From NCBI RefSeq assembly GCF_020740795.1, contig NC_067305.1:2728001-2792000 (forward strand): DNA of 64,000 nucleotides. Reading direction: 5' to 3'. Source of the stretch: Apus apus. Its lineage: Eukaryota > Chordata > Aves > Apodiformes > Apodidae. The notes under the pieces are model-generated. The model made no database searches. It worked only from the letters and a program-made list of their open reading frames with translations, and was not told the DNA's origin. Position 1 is the first letter of the stretch. Every line of letters starts with the position of its first letter. Shown here piece by piece: positions 2,260 through 60,942 of this stretch. The translations under genes were made by a program, and so were the position numbers.

Positions 2260-3092
2260 CTCCTCCTCCAGACTGACTGGTTCCACAAGGAGCTCACCAG
2301 GAGCTCTGCACCTCCTCCAGACTGACTCTGGTTCCACCAGGAGCTCATCAGGAGCCCCTGGAGCTCCTCCAGACTGACTCTAGTTCCACCAGGAGCTCAC
2401 CAGGAGCTCTGCAGCTCCTCCAGACTGACTCTGGTTCCACCAGGAGCTCACCAGGAGCTCTGGAGCTCCTCCAGACTGACTCTGGTTCCACCAGGAGCTC
2501 ACCAGGAGCTCTGCAGCTCCTCCAGGCTGACTCTGGTTCCACAAGGAGCTCACCAGGAGCTCTGGAGCTCCTCCAGACTGACTCTGGTTCCACAGGGAGC
2601 TCACCAGGAGCCCCTGGAGCTCCTCCAGACTGACTCTGGTTCCATAAGGAACTCACCAGGAGCCCCTGGATCTACTCCAGACTGACTCCAATTCCACCAG
2701 GAGCTCACCAGGAGCTCTGCAGCTCCTCCAGACTGACTCTGGTTCCACCAGGAGCTCACCAGGAGCTCTGCAGCTCCTCCAGACTGACTCTGGTTCCACC
2801 AGGAGCTCACCAGGAGCCCCTGGAGCTCCTCCAGACTGACTCTGGTTCCATAAGGAACTCACCAGGAGCTCTGGAGCTCCTCCAGGCTGACTCTGGTTCC
2901 ACCCGGAGCTCATCAGGAGCCCCTGGATCTCCTCCAGACAGACTCTGGTTCCACCAGGAGCTCACCAGGAGCCCCTGCAGCTCCTCCAGACTGACTCTGG
3001 TTCCACAGGGGGCTCACCAGGAGCCCCTGGAGCTCCTCCAGGCTGACTCTGGTTCCACCAGGAGCTCACCAGCAGCTCCTCCAGACACACCA
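2260..3092. repeat. 51-bp minisatellite, about 16 units
   Basis: The unit carries TCCAGACTGACTCTGGTTCC, then a CCAGGAGCTC pair and a CTGCAGCTCC or CTGGAGCTCC tail. Because 51 is divisible by three and stops are absent in some frames, minus-strand reading frames run through it with a 17-residue period (for example 2348-2656). The array ends about 315 bases before the promoter CRE. Units differ by a few substitutions, so it is not freshly expanded. Confidence 0.93.
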
Positions 3093-3881: not shown

Positions 3882-3886
3882 CCAAT
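3882..3886 (+). promoter_or_regulatory. CCAAT box
   Basis: CCAAT lies in the context GCCAGCCAATGGGAGC, which matches the preferred NF-Y flanks. It is the second of two CCAAT boxes. Confidence 0.6.
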
Positions 3887-3889
3887 GGG

Positions 3890-4086
3890 AGCCGGCGATC
3901 CGGCGGCGGGGGTGGGCGTGGCCGGGCGGTGACGCGGGAGGAGAGGGTAGCAACAGTTGCTTCGAGACCCGGCGCCAGGCGCCATAGTGACCGTAGCCCT
4001 GGAGACTGTTACTTGCCAACGGCAGCAACGCGCGGCCCCGGCGGCCGGAGCCCAGCGCAGCCCGCGGCGCCCGGCGGGGAGGGCAG
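3890..4086 (+). other. RFX2: Probable non-coding exon 1 of RFX2
   Basis: A strong donor, CAG followed by GTGAGC, sits at 4086/4087 inside the CpG island, 200 bases downstream of CCAAT and GC boxes. Coding begins only at 39674, just after a splice acceptor, so a separate 5' untranslated exon is required. The start site cannot be fixed from sequence; 3890 is a rough lower bound. Another first exon, for instance at the second island near 26.8 kb, is also possible. Confidence 0.55.
3947..4020. promoter_or_regulatory. X-box-like and MYB-like motifs over exon 1
   Basis: GTAGCAAC (3947-3954) is an X-box half site. It overlaps CAACAG and CAGTTG (3951-3959), which fit the MYB pattern YAACNG on opposite strands. 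GTAGCCCTGGAGAC (3993-4006) and GTTACTTGCCAAC (4008-4020) are imperfect full X-boxes. A-MYB upstream of RFX2 in meiosis is established in mouse; binding here is inference. Confidence 0.35.
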
Positions 4087-5969
4087 GTGAGCGGGGTGGG
4101 GGGTGGGGGTGGGCAACGGGGGTCCCCGCCCCGCTGAGGGGGCCCCGCGGTGCGGTGTGTGAGGAGTGAAGGGGAGTCCAGGGAGGCGAGGCCCCCCCCC
4201 CATCGCCAGCCTCAGGGGTCGGTGGAGGAGCCGCCTTCCCCGTCCCGCCTCTCCGCCCCGTCCCGGCTGTGGCAGGATTCGCCCCTCGGCACGTTTCCCC
4301 GGGGGGGGCTCCCTCGAACCCCCCCCCCCCCCGCTGCCGCCTCCGGGGCTGAGGCTGCTCCCCGCAAAAAAACACCCCCGGAAAGTTTGGGAGCGGCGTC
4401 GCGTCCGGGCGGAGCGGGGGAGGAGGAGGAGGAGGAGGAGGAGGCACCAACCCCCCCCTTCCCCCCCCCTTCCCGGCCGCGTCCGGTGCCCGCGGGCCCC
4501 GCCCGGAGCGCGGCGGGCCCGGCTCCCTCCCCGGGGCACGGCAGCTCCAGCCGCCCCTTGCAGCCCCAGCGGGGCCGCACGGCGGGAGCCTCATCCCTCC
4601 CGCCCTGAACCAACTTCTTCAGGGTTCGTTTCACGCCTTTGAACTCCCCGCTCCCAGCCTCGGGTTTGGTTCGGGACGAGCTGAACGTTTGCTCCGTCCT
4701 CCTCCCGCCGCCCGGGGTGGGGAGGAACTCGCCAAGTGCCTGGTGAGAGTTGGGAAGAGGGGCTGGAGACTCCACCTTCTTGTTTAAGAAGCTTAAAACC
4801 TCTTGTGCCGTCTCCGTTTCCCTCCCCCGGACACTCCTCCTGGTCTTAACTGGGTGGGGGGACGAGGTTTCAACTCCTCCAGTTTGCCAGAGCTTTGAAA
4901 TCCCAGCGCTTGCTTTCCTTGTTGGTCTTAGAAACGAGCAGAAAATTGCAATAAGAACTATTTTTAAGTATCTGCCGTCTATTCTTGACTTGGTTGCTCC
5001 TGTTTGTTTGGAATAAAGTATGTTGTGAAACAAGACTCATCTCCTGTTAAAGCAGGATTTTGTGGATGTGCCTATTTCAAGCGTGAGTTCCTGCAGACTG
5101 ATTAAATCTTTCCATTCTTTGACTTAGATCCTACTCTAAAGTCTTTTTTTGGTTTTGCTATTGAAAGAAGAGACTCTTACCCATTAAAGAGCAAAGCAGA
5201 ATAAATAAGGTATTTTTTAAAAAATGTCCTTTATGCTTGGAAGAGCCTTAAACTGAACCAGGAGTATCCTCAAACTGACTGTGCTCAGGTTTATTTTTTT
5301 ACTAAAGGCTTTTTTCATCTGCTTCTGCCCAACCTTTGCAACTCTCCATCTCAGTTACAAATAATTTGAGAACAGGGAGTAATTGCTGGCTTAAAAATAA
5401 AAGGGGGGAAAAAAAAAATCAGTCTCAAAATATAAGCTTTAAACTCCCAAGGTTGGGGGTTCCTTCTTTGCCTCTGTTTGTGACTTTCTGTGTGAATTTG
5501 CTTTGGTCAGCTGAAGATGAATCCAGTCTTATCTCAGTTTTATTTGGAAGTTACATGTCTGGTGGGAATCAAGTCAATGTGGAAGGGAATCTGGGAAGGG
5601 CTTCTCGTGGTGACCTATTTCAGGAGGGGTTGATTCAGCCTCTGAAGGTTGAGAGAGTCTAGGATGAGCCAGTTTGGACATTTGCCTTCTACTTGGCTGA
5701 AGTCAGGTGAGGAGAAACCCCCATTTTTCAGGACCAAACTGGGGGGGTTGGATATCCAACACGGGGACTGGGATGAGGCGGCTCCTGGTTTCACTTTGAA
5801 AATCTTATTCCACAGTTTTATAAAAAACCAAACCCCACAGGTTCTCTGCTCTCCATATTTGGTCCCAAGAGACACGAAATATCTTTTGAATTGTGTGAGA
5901 TGTTTTGCATTTGCCTCTTGGTGTGTACAGATGTGGGTGTGCTGGTGTGTTTTGTTTCCAGCCTTTAGA

Positions 5970-25080: not shown

Positions 25081-25687
25081 ACCAATCCCTTCCTGCAGTT
25101 CTGTTGCAGCACCTGGAGGGTTTGGTAGATAAACCCACAGAAAGCCCAAAGGAATCACTGAAACCACCCTGCACTTGGAGATCAGCAGCTCCAGGAAGAA
25201 GCTTTAGCATTAATGACTGTGGAAGTGACCTGATGTGATGCCAGTGCCTAAGCCTAGATTTAAAAGTTGGAGGGACTAATTCTACCCAAATTCTGTTCCT
25301 ATTGAATTTAGGAGCCTGTGACAGCAGCATGTGGCCTTAATGATGATTAGCAAGCACAGCAGAACTTTTCTGTTTAGATCATGCTGCTGCACCCAGGACA
25401 ATGATCTCTTTCCACCAGCCAAACAAAAGCCTGTCTCTGCTCTTTATTTCCACAAAGAACAAGCTCTCCCTTAAAATCCCCTGAGCGTTTAGACATTTTT
25501 GCTCTCGATTAGTTGCCTGAAATTTTAAAAGTAATAAAAGGCAAAGTACAATTCTGTCCTCTGTTCTTGGAACTAGAAGAAAACATCTTTCTCATGAGTT
25601 TCTCTTCTTCAAAGCAGAGGACACTCAAAAACCACACAAGCTCCCTCCTGGAAGCTCATTTCCCAGCAAGACTCCCTTTCCCTGGGC

Positions 25688-26170
25688 TCATAGAATCACG
25701 GAATGGTTTGAGATAGAAGGACCTTCAAGATCATCTAGATCCAACCCCCCTGCATGGGCAGGGACACCTCCCACCAGCCCAGGCTGCTCCAAGCCCCATC
25801 CAACCTGCCCTTCAACACTGCCAGGGATGGGGCAGCCACAGCTTCCCTGGGCAACCTGGGCCAGGCTCTCACCACCCTCACAACAAAGAATTCCCTCCTC
25901 ATGTCTCACCTCAATCTCCCTCTGCCAGTTTTCATCCATCCCCCCTTGTCCTCTCCCTCCCTGCCCTTGTCCCAAGCCCCTCCCCAGCTTTCCTGGAGCC
26001 CCTTCAGGCACTGGAAGGTGCTCTAAGGTCTCCCTGGAGCCTTCTCTTCTCCAGGCTGAACACCCCAACTCTCCCAGCCTGTCTCCAGAGCAGAGCTGCT
26101 CCAGCCCTTGGATCATCTCGGTGGCCTCCTCTGGACTCTCTCCAGGAGCTCCATCTCCTTCTGTCTTTGG
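25688..26170 (-). mobile_element. CR1 LINE, 3' fragment
   Basis: Starts at CATAGAATCACGGAATGG and ends near CTCCAGGAGCTCCATCTCC. Complete G-rich block. Confidence 0.92.
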
Positions 26171-26647
26171 GCTCATAGATACAAACCCCTACCTGTTGGT
26201 GTTTTAGTTGTGTTTTTTTTTTTCCAGTAGTTTAATCCTGCTGTAAAGGGATCTAAATTCTGCTGGGAAATTTCTAGGAATGTACAAATAGGTGGGGAGA
26301 AAGTACCAGTTGTAAGAACATTTCCTGAGGGCCCAGTGTGTTTGTGGGGAGCTCTGGTACCTGCGTGGTGCTTCCCTGGGCAGCAAACTGGGACCAACGG
26401 GTCTTGGTCTCACAACTAGTTACTAATGTCTCCAAAAGAGCTTCACCCGTGTTTTTAAAAAACATACAGATTGAAAAAGAACAACAACAACAAAAAACAA
26501 CCCTTCCTTTCCTGGGCATCTGCTTTGAGGAACACTCTCCAGCCTCTTAATCCGTTTATTCTGAACTAACAATTAAATAAAAGAAAACCAAAACAAAACC
26601 CCAAACCAGTCCCTTCCCCCCCCCCCCCCCCTTCAAGCTTTGCCTCA

Positions 26648-26661
26648 GTTACTATAGCAAA
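26648..26661. promoter_or_regulatory. X-box-like site
   Basis: GTTACTATAGCAAA matches the X-box GTTRCY-AT-RGCAAC except at the last base. It is the most upstream member of the intron 1 cluster. Confidence 0.5.
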
Positions 26662-26773
26662 GAAAATTATTTGTCAGTCCTCCCGGGCTCCTTCTGAAAA
26701 TACCCGCTGACATATTTAGTGGCGGGCGGGGCGGGGCGGGATGGGGATGTTTGGTTTGGGAAGAGCACCCGGG

Positions 26774-26786
26774 GTTGCCTAGCAAC
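26774..26786. promoter_or_regulatory. X-box, perfect half sites, 1-base spacer
   Basis: GTTGCCTAGCAAC has perfect half sites GTTGCC and AGCAAC with a one-base gap, and is a near-perfect inverted repeat. It abuts the next site without a gap. Confidence 0.7.
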
Positions 26787-26799
26787 GCTGCCTAGCAAC
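26787..26799. promoter_or_regulatory. X-box, tandem neighbour
   Basis: GCTGCCTAGCAAC repeats the preceding 13 bases with one change, so the two X-boxes form a direct tandem of 13-base units. Confidence 0.6.
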
Positions 26800-26818
26800 G
26801 CTCCCTGGCCGCGGCCGC

Positions 26819-26833
26819 GTTGCCCTTGGCAAC
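26819..26833. promoter_or_regulatory. X-box, 3-base spacer
   Basis: GTTGCCCTTGGCAAC has perfect half sites GTTGCC and GGCAAC with three bases between, within the accepted RFX spacer range. A weaker site, GTTGCTCCCAAAC, follows at 26838-26850. Confidence 0.7.
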
Positions 26834-27049
26834 CGCTGTTGCTCCCAAACAGCGTGTTCGGCCCCGCATCCCCCCCCCCCCTCCTTCACCGGCCTCCTCC
26901 TTCCAGAGATGCCAGGGGGTCCCCCCTGCCCTGTCACCCCTTAAGGTGGAATTAGGGTTAAACTCCCTGCCCCCATCCTCAGGTTGTGAGTCAGGATAAG
27001 GAGCTTTTGGGGAGGGTCCAGCCCAGGACCCCAGGGGTGGGGAGAGGAA

Positions 27050-27460
27050 GGAGCATCTGCCTGGGAGGAAAGGCTGGGAGAGCTGGGGCTGCTCAGCTGG
27101 GAGAAAAGGAGGCTGAGGGGGGATCTGGTCAGTGCTGGTGAATATCTCCAGGGGGTGGCAGGAGGATGGGGCCAGACTCTGCTCAGGGGTGCCCAGGGAC
27201 AGGACAAGGGGCAATGGGCACAAACTGGAGCACAGGAGGGTCAAGTTAAATATAAGAAAATAACCTCTTGGCTCTGAGGGTACCAGAGCCCTGGGACAGG
27301 CTGCCCAGGGAGGTTGTGGAGTCTCCATCCCTGGAGACATTCCAACCCCACCTGGATGTGTTCCTGTGGGATCTGCTCTAGGGGATCCTGCTCTGGCAGG
27401 GGGTTGGACTGGGTGATCTCCAGAGGTCCTTTCTGACTCCCACCATTCTGTGACCTAAGG
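27050..27460 (+). mobile_element. CR1 LINE, third variant
   Basis: Ends with GACTGGGTGATCTCCAGAGG and CACCATTCTGTGACC. It carries a CR1 tail with GACATTCCAACCCCACCTGG in place of the commoner region. Confidence 0.88.
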
Positions 27461-31984: not shown

Positions 31985-32790
31985 GGATGGGGCACATCCC
32001 ATGGGATCTGAGGCTCCATCCCACGGGATCTGAGGCTCCATCCTGCAGGGTCCCAGGCTCCATCCCACAGGATCTGAGACTCCATCCCGCAGGATCCCAG
32101 GCTCCATCCTGCAGGATCCCAGGCTCCATCCCACAGGATCTGAGACTCCGTCCCGCAGGATCCCAGGCTCCATCCTGCAGGGTCCCAGGCTCCATCCCAC
32201 AGGATCTGAGGCTCCTTCCCACAGGATCTGAGGCTCCATCCTGCAGGATCTGAGGCTCCATCCTGCAGGATCCCAGGCTCCAACCCGCAGGATCTGAGGC
32301 TCCATCCTGCAGGATCTGAGGCTCCATCCTGCAGGATCCCAGGCTCCATCCCGCAGGATCTGAGGCTCCTTCCTGCAGGATCTGAGGCTCCATCCTGCAG
32401 GATCTGAGGCTCCATCCTGCAGGATCCCAGGCTCCATCCCGCAGGATCTGAGGCTCCATCCCGCAGGATCTGAGGTTCCATCCTGCAGGATCTGAGGCTC
32501 CATGCCAAAGGATCTGAGGCTCCATCCCAAAGGAGCCCAGGCTCCAACCCACAGGATCTGAGGCTCCATCCTGCAGGATCCCAGGCTCCATCCCACAGAA
32601 TCTGAGGCTCCATCCCAAAGGATCCCAAGCTTCATCCTGCAGGATCTGAGGCTCCATCCTGCAGGATCTGAGGCTCCATCCCACAGGATCTGAGGCTTCA
32701 TCCCAAAGGAGCCCAGGCTCCATCCTGCAGGATCTGAAGCTCCATCCTGCAGGATCCCAAGCTCCATCCCACATGATCCCAGGCTCTGTG
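31985..32790. repeat. 22-bp minisatellite, about 36 units
   Basis: Two unit types alternate, one with GGATCTGAGGCTCCATCC and one with GGATCCCAGGCTCCATCC, joined by TGCA, CGCA or CACA. The unit lacks stops in all minus-strand frames, so frames of up to 329 codons with a 22-residue period cross it in every phase. They are artefacts. Confidence 0.95.
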
Positions 32791-36300: not shown

Positions 36301-36521
36301 CCAGAAGTTATTAGTTTTTTCTGTATTTCCTTTCCTGTCACTGCTGTTTGCTTGGATACCGAGTGAGCTGGGTGTAAACAGAGGGTTTCCAGCACCAGGC
36401 AGCCTCCTTATCTGCCTGATATATCCAGTGATGATGCAACCTGGCACCCAGATTTCTCCCCTGCCTCCGTCGTGCTGCATGGGACTTCACCAGCCCTGTT
36501 GAGCAACCTGAGTTTTAAACT

Positions 36522-38953: not shown

Positions 38954-39665
38954 CCAGGGTGGCTGAGGGATGCTGGGTGGGTGGTGGGACAGGGATCTGA
39001 GTGACTGGAAGATGTTGGGGGCGTCAGCCCTGGAGGGTGGGAGCAGGACAGAAGGGTGATGGTGTGTCCCTGTTTGGGGACCTTGGCATGGTCAGGGATG
39101 GGGCATTGGAGGTGGTGCTTTCTGGGGGTGGTTTTGCAGATTTTGAAGTGATGGTCAATCCCTGTTCTTCTGCTGTTCATGTTTGATTGTCAGGTGTGAG
39201 TACAAACCCATACTGGCCACCCCACTTCCCAGATGCAAGCACCAGCTGAGCTCCAGGCACGTGCTTAGATCTGATTAATTATTTTTTGTGCAGGAGCTAA
39301 AGATGATAAGGCAGAGGGGGAGTAAAAATGAGTTTTAAATATGCCCTTACTCTTCCAGATCTGAAGTTATCCTCACGATGACACAATCATTTTCCAACTC
39401 TACTTTTCAGTTATATTTAGAAACACATTTTCTGTTCCTTCCCCTCTCCTACTCTGTGGAACAATTGTGCAACTTAAGTTTTTCTTCATATAATAATACT
39501 GTCTTAAAATTAGCTCCAAGACTCAAAAAGACTCCCCTGTGTAGGAAGGTAACTGCCTTCCTTCCTACCACTTCCCCTGGATCTTCCATTGGGATTTGGT
39601 TCCTGTCAGAGGCGGGTTCCTCGGTTCCTTAGGGTGTTGGGCTGATGTCCCTCTGCTCTCCCCAG

Positions 39666-39778
39666 CAGTGAGCATGCAGAGTTCAGAGGGTGGATCCGAC
39701 TCAGCAGCTTCTGTGGCTCTTCACCCTTCTGCCCCAGCCCAAGCTCCAGTGGTGCAACCAGTGCCAGCATCTCAGCAG
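39666..39778 (+). CDS. RFX2: RFX2 coding exon 1 (start codon exon)
   Basis: A pyrimidine tract and AG at 39664-39665 precede the exon, although an AG three bases later could also serve. The ATG at 39674 has A at -3 and opens MQSSEGGSDSAASVALHPS, the recognisable RFX2 N-terminus. Coding part is 105 nt (residues 1-35), ending Q-Q in phase 0 before donor GTAACG. This P/Q/A-rich segment begins the N-terminal activation region. The 5' untranslated part in this exon is only about eight bases. Confidence 0.93.
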
Positions 39779-40706: not shown

Positions 40707-41610
40707 GATATGATGCACTTGGGAGGTCTCCTGGCTGGGAGGAATGGTAGGTTCAGCTGATGAATGAAACCTGCAAAATGGGAAGGGTTAAGTACAGCTG
40801 GTTCCTTTTTATGCCTTTTGGGGAACTATCAAGAGGAGTTTCTGTCGCAGGAAGCCGGAGGGATAAGAGGATGGGTGGGTGTAACTTGGCTACACCCACT
40901 TCTCTCCAATTCCCAAGTGAGCAGAAGTCACTGCCATTGGATGCTGGTGAAAAGGAACAATTAAAAATTGAGGCAGGAGCATTGGATTGACCAGGAGACG
41001 TGGACATTCCCATCGTGTGGTCCGGGGTGTGTTTGGCCAGCTCTCGGTCACCCTTCAGCCTTCCCATCTCCCATGCTCTGGGTTTCTTGTTGCTGTTGTG
41101 ATACCGTGGATACCCCTGATCAGCAGCCTCAAGTATCTTCAGGATCATCAGTCATTTGTATGAATTTGTGACACCTTGTTAAAGAAGCTGAGAAAACCCA
41201 TCCCTTTGGATGATGAAATTACCCATCCGGGCTTTGCTGGTGCTGTTGTCATGACACGTCGTGTTGAGTGGAACTCTGTGGATTAAGGATGACCCAGAAG
41301 ACTGTGGAAGATTGAGGAGGAGGAGCATCCAGAGCCATCCCTTCTCAGCAGCAGGACAAAGGCAAAACTGAGGATGAACTACTGGCAGCATGGCTGGTGT
41401 GAGGCTGAAGGCTTTGGTGGTGTTGATCACTGGTCTACCTTCCAGTGTGAGAGGAGGCTGTATGAACAGGATGGCTTCATCTTACAGGTTGGAGATGATT
41501 CATTAATTTGGTTGAGAGGTAACAGGAGGAACTTTGCAGGTGGGGACAAATTCCACAAGTAGCTGAGCTGCTCAGCTGTGCCTGAGGAGATGTGTTCTTT
41601 GTTGAGAGCA

Positions 41611-45179: not shown

Positions 45180-45447
45180 ACGAGCCACCTACTCCTACAA
45201 CACAGAAGCTCAGATTTACGCCCCCAGCAGCGCAGCCTCCTATTTCGAGCCGCAGGGAGGAGGTGGAGCTCAGGTGACTACAGCGACATCCTCTCCTACA
45301 GCCATTCCCTCTCACAACATGGTGGGCATCACCATGGACATTGGGGGAAGTCAGATCCTCTCCGGCTCGGGAGCCTATCTCATTCATGGGGGGATGGAAA
45401 ACACTAGACATTCTCTGTCACATACTTCACGCTCCTCTCCAGCAACG
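45180..45447 (+). CDS. RFX2: RFX2 coding exon 4
   Basis: The exon is 268 nt (residues 92-181), from acceptor TTTGACAG to donor GTATGT, and ends in phase 0. It encodes RATYSYNTEAQIYAPSS, then SYFEPQGGGGAQV, a VGITMDIGG segment and SHTSRSSPAT. The middle is Gly/Ser-rich and poorly ordered. A CR1 fragment ends about 30 bases before the acceptor, so the branch point must lie in a very short stretch or inside the repeat. Reading through the donor gives 26 more codons and a stop that overlaps AATAAA. Confidence 0.94.
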
Positions 45448-48400
45448 GTATGTAGCCCTGCAGATGTTGAAGCTCAGGGGCCAGGAATTGTGCCAAGGGG
45501 ACTGAAAAGCCTTCAGAAAATCAAATAAAGTCCTGTCTGTGAACATGTCTAGAACCTGCCATGCCAAGGCAAGGGAGAGAATAGACACTGGTGTACTACA
45601 GGGAGTTCTTCAGCAGGAGTTGGGGACGTCTCTCTTGCTGGTGGGCAGAGGCTTTGTCAAACTTTCTTCCCTTTCAAACTGCTCTCATTGAAATTGTGCA
45701 GCAAAGAAGAGAAAATTCTCATTTTGGGGTGGTTTTGTTTTTTTTTCATTCCCTGAGCAAATTACTTTGGCTTCCCCGTTCAAAAGAATTGCCTGTGTTT
45801 ACATTTTTGAACAAGCAGGACGTCTGACCATGGGCCTTGGCTTCCCCACAGCAAAGAAATATACCAGTGTGTTTTTCTTTCTGAAGGGACCTGAAAAATC
45901 CATCATTAACCCACTGGGTAATTAGCACAGAAGGTCTGTCAAGCTGATCATGCCCAATGTGCAGTGATTGAAAAGCCTTTGTGTATCTCCTACACCATTG
46001 TGTATTCTGCCCGTGCCATGTGCTGCAGCAAATGTGTTGTAGGGATAATGCTGATCAAACAGAGATGTTGAAAACCCTTAATTATGATTTTGTTTTTGGA
46101 ATGGTGTCCCTCCAGCTGTCAGTCGAGGTGCCAGGTTGGGAGAAACACAGCTGGACACATGTGTGGGACTGGGGGGAAACACCTGTGAACCCAGACCAGC
46201 TGGAGCTGCCAGGGCTTTTCCTGGAGAACCTCCCAGCCCTTGGTAGCAGCTGCAGCCAGGAATGGGTTGGAGCTCTGCTCACCTTCCTTTCCAGACTGAT
46301 TTAGGTGTATTTATATGTTTATATTGAAACATAATTACAAATATAGGTGTGATTCAGAGTATGTGGCCAGATTTTAAAATATAAACAACAACACCACCCA
46401 GGGAGAAAACCAGTTGCTACTGGACACTCTTGGACATCCTGCCCCTTAGGTTGTGTTTTGTTTTCCCCCTGAGTTTTAGAACACAGACTTGATGGTTTTT
46501 TGAATCTTTTTACCTTGAAAGGTTGGTGACAGAATAAACGTGCTCTGCCTGAGGTAGAAGCAGGGGAAATGTGCTCAGCTTTGGGTGGAAAATGACTTCT
46601 GGAACAGCTGGGGTCCCTCTCTCGTGTGTGTGTTTGTGTGTATTTAACTGTTCACAGTTAAAAACTGTTCACAGTTTTTGTTTGTTTGCTATTTTGAAGG
46701 AAGTAGCTGCTGATGTTGTCACCTGTGTGGGGCTGCACCTTTGCAAAGCACAACGTGACTTTGGTTTGGTTTGTTATTTCTGTTGCCCTGGTGATGGGCA
46801 CAATGGAAAAGGCCCAGGTAGAATATGTGTCAGTAGAAATGTCCCATGAACAGATGGAGCTTGTGGCTGTCTAGCACATGAGATCAAAGTGGTCAGGAAA
46901 AAAAGAATGGAGGGAGTTACCTTTATGAAAATGCATCTGAGGTAAATTCACTTCGTTGCCTGTGAGGAGGAACTTTCAGAAAGGATTTTAACACAAAATG
47001 TCTGTGGCTCTTTTGAAAGGGTTCCAGAGAGTGAAGGAGTGGATGGAAGACACCCTAGGGATGTGTCTGTGGGTGGCTGTCAGTTAGAATCATGGAATGG
47101 TTTGGGTTGGATGGGACCTTAAAGATCATCCAGTCCCAACTCCCCTGCATGGGCAGGGACACCTCCCACCAGCCCAGGCTGCTCCAAGCCCCATCCAACC
47201 TGCCCTTCAACACTGCCAGGGATGGGGCAGCCACAGCTTCCCTGGGCAACCTGGGCCAGGCTCTCACCACCCTCACACTCCAGAATTCCCTCCTCATGTC
47301 TCACCTCAATCTCCTTCTTCCAGTTTTCATCCATCCCCCCTTGTCCTCTCATAAGCCCTTGTCCAAAGTTCCTCTCCTGTGTTCTCCCAGCACAGACCAG
47401 AGTCAGAGGGGGACAGGGCAGATCCATGAGAACTGCTTTGGATTTCACAGCATGGTGGGTGGATGGGGAGTGGAAGGCTTAAGGAGAGCAAGGACAACAC
47501 CACATCAGTGGTTGGAACATTATTTTTCATTGCAGTGCCTGAAGCAGAGGACAGGGAAGGCTGGTGTCCCAGAGGCTGGAGAAGCTGTAGTCCTGGCAAA
47601 ATGGATTTGGGGCAGAATTAAGAGCTTGGTGGAGAGGGAGTAAAAGTACATCTCATGCAGGTGTAGCCAAGGAAGACGTGGTGTTTGCATGTGGCTTTGG
47701 GGGTGAAGTGCAAAGGGGATGGAAGCCAAAGTGTCCAGCAATGGGGGGGTTGGCTGCTGGGAATGGAGAAGGGTCTGGAGGGCTTGAATGCTTGAGGCAG
47801 AGCTGGCCCTGAGACCTCAGAAGGGAAAGCAAGGAGAGCATCTTCAGAGGAGGCAAAGAACAAGGCAGCACTTCAGAATTAGCAATGGTATCAGAGCTGC
47901 CCCTGGAGGTTGAGGATGTTTGGTGAAGACTGAATGTACCCTAAGATGTAATCTTCAGTTATTTAAAAAAACTCATCCTCTATATCTGCTGGAATGATGA
48001 TGTTCAGCTCCAGCAGGTGGGCTGAAGCAGCACATGAAGTTCAACATCAGTGCCCACAGAGCAGAATGAATCTTCACTTAAACTAGATGATACCAAGAGG
48101 GGAGATCCTTGAGGCCTCCCATGAGTGGGTCCTCAGAGCTCCTCCCTTCATGCTCCTCACCATTTAAGAGCTCTTAGTCTTTCCCCTGTAGGATATTTTT
48201 TCTGCAGATGTCAAGTGTCCATTTGCATGGGACACTTACCAAGGAGCCAGAAGGTTTGGCAGTGTTTCCAGGCTTGTGTAAGAGGAGTTGCTCAACTGGC
48301 ACTGGGCTGCTCCTTGAGCAGAGGAAGGAAATGGTGTCTCCCTCTAACACTGACTCATTTCCTGAAGGCTGCATCAGCAATCAGCCCTTGGTTCCTCATG

Positions 48401-58018: not shown

Positions 58019-58498
58019 GAAGGTGTTAAACACCTCAAAACCATTTGTAGGATCTGTCAGTACCAGGTAACCTGCTCCACCAACCTGCTCTGCAAACATT
58101 TGTCCCCACTGCTACAGCTGAGGAGCTTTAGTGCAGAGAGGAGAGGCAGGAATGTTTTGGAAGTAGCTGGGTTTGTAGGAAGGAACCAGCTACACCTTTG
58201 CCTGCTGAAATGACTCCCCTCAAGGGCAGTTCCCAGCTTCACATGCCCAGGGGTGGGCAAGAGGCACCTGAGGTTCCAGACCAAAGAAGCAGAAGCAGAA
58301 ACTCCTCAGAGCTCTGACCCCATGGACAGGGAGGTTTGCAGGGTCAGGCAAGACCTGCACAAACAAGCAGACATTTCCTTTTCAAAGGACCAGGAATGGG
58401 TTTTTCCTGCTGAAAACTGGGGTTAGAAATGGAGAGGAAGGGGGAATGTACTGAATGCCAAACCTGCTGCTGATGCTGCCTCCCTCCTGCTCCCACAG

Positions 58499-60412: not shown

Positions 60413-60942
60413 CAGAGCAGTGTTGGGCTGGGCAGGGTGTCCCAGGCTGGGCTGGGCAGGGTGTCCTGGGCTGGGCAGGGTGTCCCAGGATGGACTGAGC
60501 AGGGTGTCCCGGGCTGGGCAGGGTGTCCCAGGCTGGGCTGGGCAGGGTGTCCCAGGATGGACTGAGCAGGGTGTCCTGGGCTGGGGAGGGTGTCCTGGGC
60601 TGGGCTGGGCAGGGTGTCCTGGGCTGGGCAGGGTGTCCCAGGATGGACTGAGCAGGGTGTTCTGGGCAGGGCAGGGTGTCCTGGGCTGGGCAGGGTGTCC
60701 CAGGATGGACTGAGCAGGGTGTTCTGGGCAGGGCAGGGTGTCCTGGGCTGGGCAGGGTGTCCCAGGATGGACTGAGCAGGGTGTTCTGGGCAGGGCAGGG
60801 TGTCCTGGGCTGGGCAGGGTGTCCCAGGATGGACTGAGCAGGGTGTTCTGGGCAGGGCAGGGTGTTCTGGGCTGGGCAGGGTGTCCCAGGATGGACTGAG
60901 CAGGATGTCCTGGGCAGGGCAGGGTGTCCTGGGCTGAACCTG
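60413..60942. repeat. GC-rich minisatellite with 62-bp higher-order unit
   Basis: The basic element is a GGGCAGGGTGTCC-type sequence of about 20 bases. GATGGACTGAGCAGGG recurs at 60489, 60556, 60642, 60704, 60766, 60828 and 60890. The last four intervals are exactly 62, so the 3' half is the youngest, homogenised part. The minus-strand frame of 531 codons across 59821-61416 is produced by this array and the purine tract. Confidence 0.93.

Follow-up and report, generated by a model that had tools for sequence, protein, structure and literature searches.

Does RFX2, a regulator of cilia and sperm, control its own gene? In 2009 the question still had no answer for mouse Rfx2 (PMC2797782), and a 2018 survey judged such self-regulation 'not a common feature' of human RFX genes (PMC5838959). 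A stretch of 64,000 nucleotides from Apus apus (contig NC_067305.1, positions 2,728,001 to 2,792,000; hereafter the window, numbered from its first base) raises it for a bird. Near 26.8 kb, within a CpG-rich patch of RFX2 intron 1, lies a cluster of RFX sites that stands well above shuffled sequence. At 60 bases, the cluster is a small and exact target for testing RFX2 self-regulation, and it would be a modest local curiosity if absent in other birds.

The RFX2 gene and its first intron

The exons of the window join into a 650-residue reading frame without stops that is ended by the window's edge, the acceptor of the exon placed at 58493 being provisional. A protein search with this frame scored 7977 candidates, 3640 of them at an E value of 0.001 or better. 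The best 120 of these 3640 homologues are 84-98% identical, and the names shown identify them as RFX2 or RFX2-like proteins of birds, reptiles and a few mammals, with one also named 'hypothetical protein'. In its DNA-binding part the frame matches a domain of human RFX1 with a solved structure (1dp7), and the RFX1_trans_act family is recognized in the exon at 45181-45450. By sequence similarity, the gene is avian RFX2. Its start-codon exon (39666-39778, + strand, ATG at 39674) ends intron 1, with an acceptor ending at 39665.

The probable main promoter (3882-4090, + strand) was recognized by its likeness to the mouse Rfx2 promoter as this is described in words: a CpG island with an NF-Y site, GC boxes, and MYB sites and RFX half sites, three of each; one of the MYB sites is an overlapping inverted pair with a 3 bp displacement, placed within two RFX half sites (PMC2797782). 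In Apus apus, a CCAAT at 3882 and a GC box (GGGCGG) at 3924 are followed by RFX half sites at 3949-3961 (AGCAAC and GTTGCT) around CAACAGTTG, itself an inverted pair displaced by 3 bases, with one of its members fitting YAACKG. A weak inverted RFX pair, CTTGCC-AAC-GGCAGC, occupies 4012-4026, with CAACGG at 4017. The 3.88-4.03 kb region is probably the orthologous counterpart of the mouse promoter, as judged against the description and not against the mouse letters. One feature fits poorly: in the mouse, the assigned cap site comes about 200 bases after the site cluster (PMC2797782), whereas the strongest candidate donor of exon 1 in Apus apus (CAG/GTGAGC at 4087, 10.9 bits) sits only 60-140 bases past the promoter site cluster. 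The next good donor is at 4743 (8.8 bits). In the mouse, exon 1 is non-coding and the start codon is in exon 2 (PMC2797782, Horvath and colleagues).

As the probable promoter at 3.88-4.03 kb is upstream of the X-box cluster and the ATG exon at 39.67 kb is downstream, the cluster falls in intron 1, whichever of the two donors ends exon 1; with the frame unbroken to the end of the window, the predicted gene and intronic location are both supported. The 26.8 kb patch was itself considered as the main RFX2 promoter and rejected, because the features described for the mouse (NF-Y site, GC box, and MYB site inside RFX half sites) are found at 3.88-4.03 kb instead. A motif search of 26400-27100 found no CCAAT or ATTGG and only one YAACKG.

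Several further features of the locus were observed. A probable alternative first coding exon of RFX2 is located at 41374-41487 (+ strand), the GT at 41488 being in frame with the next exon; across 38 residues, this segment is 84% identical to the N-terminus of an isoform annotated in Morphnus guianensis (P0013; E 9e-27), and the N-terminus of another homologue, P0018, corresponds to a different frame of this DNA. The segment at 36431-36472 (+ strand) weakly matches chicken RFX2 in one of its alternative N-termini (P0107; E 0.012; 57% along the first 14 residues, starting with the Met). Goose has a similar N-terminus (P0098), and the segment may be a further alternative first exon with an unclear donor. 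Large minisatellites occur at 2263-3078 (51-base unit, 16 copies), 32004-32786 (22-base unit, 36 copies) and 60600-60936 (62-base unit, 5.4 copies).

The X-box cluster

The X-box is an inverted repeat, GTNRCC-N(0-3)-RGYAAC (PMC5752003). Three sites of this kind, all on the + strand, were identified within 60 bases. X-box 3 (26819-26833; GTTGCC-CTT-GGCAAC, spacer 3) has two perfect half sites and the top matrix score of the window. X-box 1 (26774-26786; GTTGCC-T-AGCAAC, spacer 1) has the second-best score and starts 45 bases before it; the second half of X-box 1 fits RGYAAC and is one base off GGCAAC, so that the original prediction of two sites with perfect half sites holds in full for X-box 3 only. 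Both sites agree with the published consensus, from which X-box 2 (26787-26799; GCTGCC-T-AGCAAC, spacer 1; 15.3 bits, tied for fourth to sixth in the window) differs by one base. X-box 2 is a tandem copy of X-box 1, and the predicted 13-base direct tandem of abutting sites was recovered by Tandem Repeats Finder as a repeat of 2.4 copies at 26776-26806. Since this tandem probably arose by one duplication, the cluster provides two sites as independent evidence. The exact 26-base tandem had no match in viral contigs, a result with no bearing on birds.

The outer members of the predicted group of five fared less well under the weight matrix. Of two sites called near-perfect, X-box 2 is a good one, whereas GTTACT-AT-AGCAAA at 26648-26661 (+ strand) is weak, reaching 10.8 bits with 42 window alignments scoring higher; a MYB-type CAGTTA at 26646 overlaps it. 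The supposed weak fifth site at 26838-26850 (+ strand) is indistinguishable from background (5.2 bits, 425 window alignments higher) and was discarded as noise. The spacers of 1 and 3 bases had been considered unusual; both are inside the published range of 0-3 bases (PMC5752003; PMC2797782).

Excess over shuffled sequence

The strict pattern G[TC]TGCC-N(0-3)-RGCAAC was counted on both strands of the window, in dinucleotide shuffles of the 64 kb window and in shuffles of the 350-base island. Its three matches in the window are X-boxes 1-3. Across 300 window shuffles the mean was 0.2 and the maximum 2, and none of the 300 had three matches within 200 bases; among 20,000 island shuffles, 34 contained one match and none contained more. 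The looser GTNRCC-N(0-3)-RGYAAC has four matches in the window against a shuffle mean of 0.57, and two of the four are in the island, a number reached by 1 of 20,000 island shuffles. An approximate RFX weight matrix gave a similar picture, ranking 26819 first and 26774 second, with 26787 in the three-way tie noted above. At 15 bits or more, the window has six sites, three of them in the cluster (shuffle mean 0.8, maximum 4), and even two such sites within 60 bases were found in none of 200 window shuffles. At 13 bits or more, it has nine (mean 3.2, maximum 8); two within a 60-base span occurred in 2 of 200 window shuffles and three in none. In these counts the motif density of the cluster is above chance, with the reservation that shuffles understate the true site background two- to fourfold, because the window outside the cluster has six sites of at least 13 bits, where shuffles average 3.2, and three of at least 15 bits, where they average 0.8. 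The sites for this one factor are closer together than chance, as the term homotypic cluster implies, the second being a tandem copy of the first; the term suits the three sites at 26774, 26787 and 26819 and does not extend to the two outer ones.

Loose X-box counts in this window are inflated by GCTTCCCTGGGCAAC (nine places) or its complement (seven), a look-alike with two mismatches found at 16 places (for example 662, 7951, 19762, 25841 and 63496), mostly within repeat copies that we take to be CR1-like.

These counts bear on the explanation that the cluster has no current function, being a chance or relic group of sites that was enlarged by the local 13-base duplication in a CpG-rich spot. 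The sites were picked by eye from 64 kb, two of them are probably products of one duplication, and single sites in the rest of the window outnumber those of shuffles by a factor of 2-4; because sites outside the cluster exceed the shuffles, this explanation was given more weight, and an enhancer less, than the shuffles by themselves would suggest. However, three sites so close together were produced by none of the 20,000 island shuffles and none of the 200-300 window shuffles, and the surrounding CpG observed/expected ratio is far above that of the intron. Overall, an absence of function appears unlikely.

The CpG-rich patch

CpG islands are defined by a GC content above 0.55 and a CpG observed/expected ratio above 0.6 over at least 200-300 bases. 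In overlapping 300-base windows, both values are exceeded at 26601-26950, which makes the patch a small island. In a scan with 250-base windows, its core (26651-26900) has 18 CpG, an observed/expected ratio of 0.75 and a GC content of 0.62. This is the top CpG count between 4.8 and 39.6 kb, where the medians are one CpG and a ratio of 0.06, and the ratio of the core is about 12 times the intron median. The retained CpGs suggest, on inference, protection from methylation in the germline. Another CpG-rich patch of intron 1, at about 7.1-7.6 kb, has 15 CpG per 250 bases and a ratio of up to 0.95, and no X-box of 13 bits or more by the weight matrix; the island had been called a second one, inside intron 1, and its presence there is upheld while the ordinal is not.

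The X-boxes are contained in a segment (26163-27039) that has no copy elsewhere in the window by repeat comparison, and this segment lies between repeat-like stretches at 25680-26162 and 27040-27457, presumably CR1. GC boxes had been placed immediately upstream of the X-boxes, and three overlapping copies of GGGCGG are indeed present on the + strand at 26724, 26729 and 26734 (26724-26739). The run of G-tracts at 26724-26746, beside the X-boxes, could form a G-quadruplex, and there is a run of 16 C at 26616 and one of 12 C at 26870.

Possible alternative promoters at the patch

The CpG-rich DNA, GC boxes and X-boxes would also suit an alternative + strand RFX2 promoter that starts at about 26.85-26.95 kb and whose non-coding first exon would join the ATG exon at 39.67 kb by splicing. 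Among mouse RFX2 peaks, the most robust show an enrichment in promoters (PMC4498915), and alternative RFX2 starts occur in annotated relatives, as 31 of the best 120 homologues (birds, reptiles and one seal) have N-termini that are non-standard by our own pattern, one kind of which maps to 41374-41487. However, no + strand splice donor above 6 bits was found at 26780-27040, a weak argument given that about 0.7 would be expected by chance, and the nearest ones, at 27128 and 27138, score 6.5 and 6.8 bits and are inside a repeat, compared with 6.7-11.0 bits for seven RFX2 donors. Nine of the 31 N-termini were too short for a search; of the 22 with at least nine residues, none maps to 26163-27040 better than E 1.4, and alternative protein starts at the island were rejected on this result. 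For the promoter itself it is a weak argument, as most of the 22 map nowhere in the window: two have a clear place at 41.37-41.49 kb (E below 1e-9), three extend into the bases immediately ahead of the ATG exon (E 0.02-0.03), and the remainder have no convincing place in the window. These results lend no support to a coding alternative first exon at 26.8 kb, and a non-coding one may exist there; a + strand promoter at the patch seems improbable to us.

Read in the opposite direction, the X-boxes, the GC boxes and a CTAAATA (26713-26719) follow one another in the order of an ordinary activator-driven promoter. Such a - strand promoter would start an antisense or nested non-coding RNA near 26690, with a donor, CAGGTAGGG, at 26192 that scores 9.0 bits. 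The + strand of the window has 0.9 donors above 8 bits per kb, which places this one within chance. A nested gene in intron 1 was rejected because nine long reading frames of the intron have no Pfam match at E 0.01 and scans of the whole window for Rfam families (at gathering scores) and for tRNAs found nothing; these results also count against a - strand transcript, and are compatible with a non-coding RNA. We regard a promoter of this orientation as decidedly improbable.

A probable intronic element for RFX self-regulation

The patch at 26.65-26.90 kb is probably a regulatory element involved in RFX self-regulation. More specifically, we tentatively favour, with slightly less than even confidence, a cis-regulatory element of RFX2 to which RFX proteins would bind, most likely an enhancer within the intron that is promoter-like in its composition. 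The predicted self-regulated alternative promoter or enhancer is retained in its self-regulatory part, with the enhancer as the simpler reading; the alternative promoter gained no positive support. It is plausible that RFX2, or RFX1 or RFX3 in the same cell, would occupy two or three consensus X-boxes while SP-type factors occupy the GC boxes, that RFX dimerisation would connect the intronic element with the main promoter, whose weaker RFX half sites lie 22.7 kb upstream, and that RFX2 would in this way control the transcription of its own gene by feedback in the testis or in ciliated cells.

The enhancer reading is supported by the concentration of the window's two top X-boxes and a tandem copy within 60 bases, unmatched by shuffles, and by the contrast between a CpG ratio of 0.75 and an intron median of 0.06 in DNA without copies in the window. 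It is also supported by the RFX half sites of the probable main promoter, since the corresponding mouse region prompted the suggestion of auto-regulation (PMC2797782). In Xenopus, Rfx2 was proposed to bring distal enhancers with Rfx motifs to promoters via dimerisation (PMC5245798), and about two thirds of nearly 3,000 RFX2 ChIP peaks in mouse testis are outside promoters (PMC4498915). On the other hand, the promoter enrichment of the strongest of these mouse peaks counts against it, as do the probable origin of two of the three sites by one duplication and the background understated by shuffles. In the human survey, promoters and candidate enhancers of RFX genes have no over-representation of RFX motifs, autoregulation is suggested not to be common, and distal functional X-boxes are judged exceptional (PMC5838959).

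The sign of the feedback is less certain, and a positive one is a guess. As the gene's strongest RFX sites lie in its own first intron, a direct positive-feedback switch can be envisaged in which A-MYB would induce RFX2 at the upstream promoter and RFX2 would then maintain its own expression while sperm and cilia form; this we consider possible but rather unlikely. The opposite sign is that of an autorepressive element, in which RFX proteins at the cluster would damp RFX2 as RFX1 does at its own promoter (PMC8106159; PMC2797782). The inhibitory C-terminus of RFX2 (PMC2797782) is in line with such damping, and the analogy is drawn from a different paralogue and from a promoter, not an intron; autorepression at the cluster appears quite unlikely.

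Comparison with known systems

In the titles, abstract openings and selected passages searched, we found no description of RFX sites clustered in intron 1 of RFX2. In the human survey, the three CAGE starts tabulated for RFX2 match one transcript, ENST00000303657, and RFX1 was suggested as possibly the sole exception among the RFX genes, whose promoters and candidate enhancers are not over-represented in RFX motifs (PMC5838959). Enrichment of RFX motifs genome-wide was reported in open chromatin of goose pituitary (PMC10137868).

The start-site-switching auto-regulation of ZNF143 (PMC3936768) is similar in that sites for a factor in its own gene set its amount, and it provides a model for an alternative promoter; ZNF143 is an unrelated factor. 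RFX1 autorepression shares with the cluster the presence of RFX sites in an RFX protein's own gene, and differs as well in that its sign is known. The Xenopus enhancers, which are bound by Rfx2 and proposed to loop to ciliary promoters, are alike in their distal RFX motifs and in the action expected via RFX dimerisation; unlike the cluster, they act on genes of multiciliated cells, and a term search of that report found no wording on autoregulation or feedback (PMC5245798).

The closest comparison is with mouse Rfx2, for which the promoter region is said to bind RFX2 in pachytene extracts, a result marked unpublished, and auto-regulation of unknown sign was suggested from the promoter half sites (PMC2797782). 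As autoregulation was already suggested there, the Apus apus cluster would be a new instance of the idea. Unlike the mouse main promoter, it is in intron 1, 22.7 kb downstream of the probable counterpart of that promoter, and has full consensus X-boxes without an NF-Y site or a MYB group. Like the mouse 5' promoter, it is a CpG-rich part of the RFX2 gene that bears both RFX sites and GC boxes and may serve auto-regulation.
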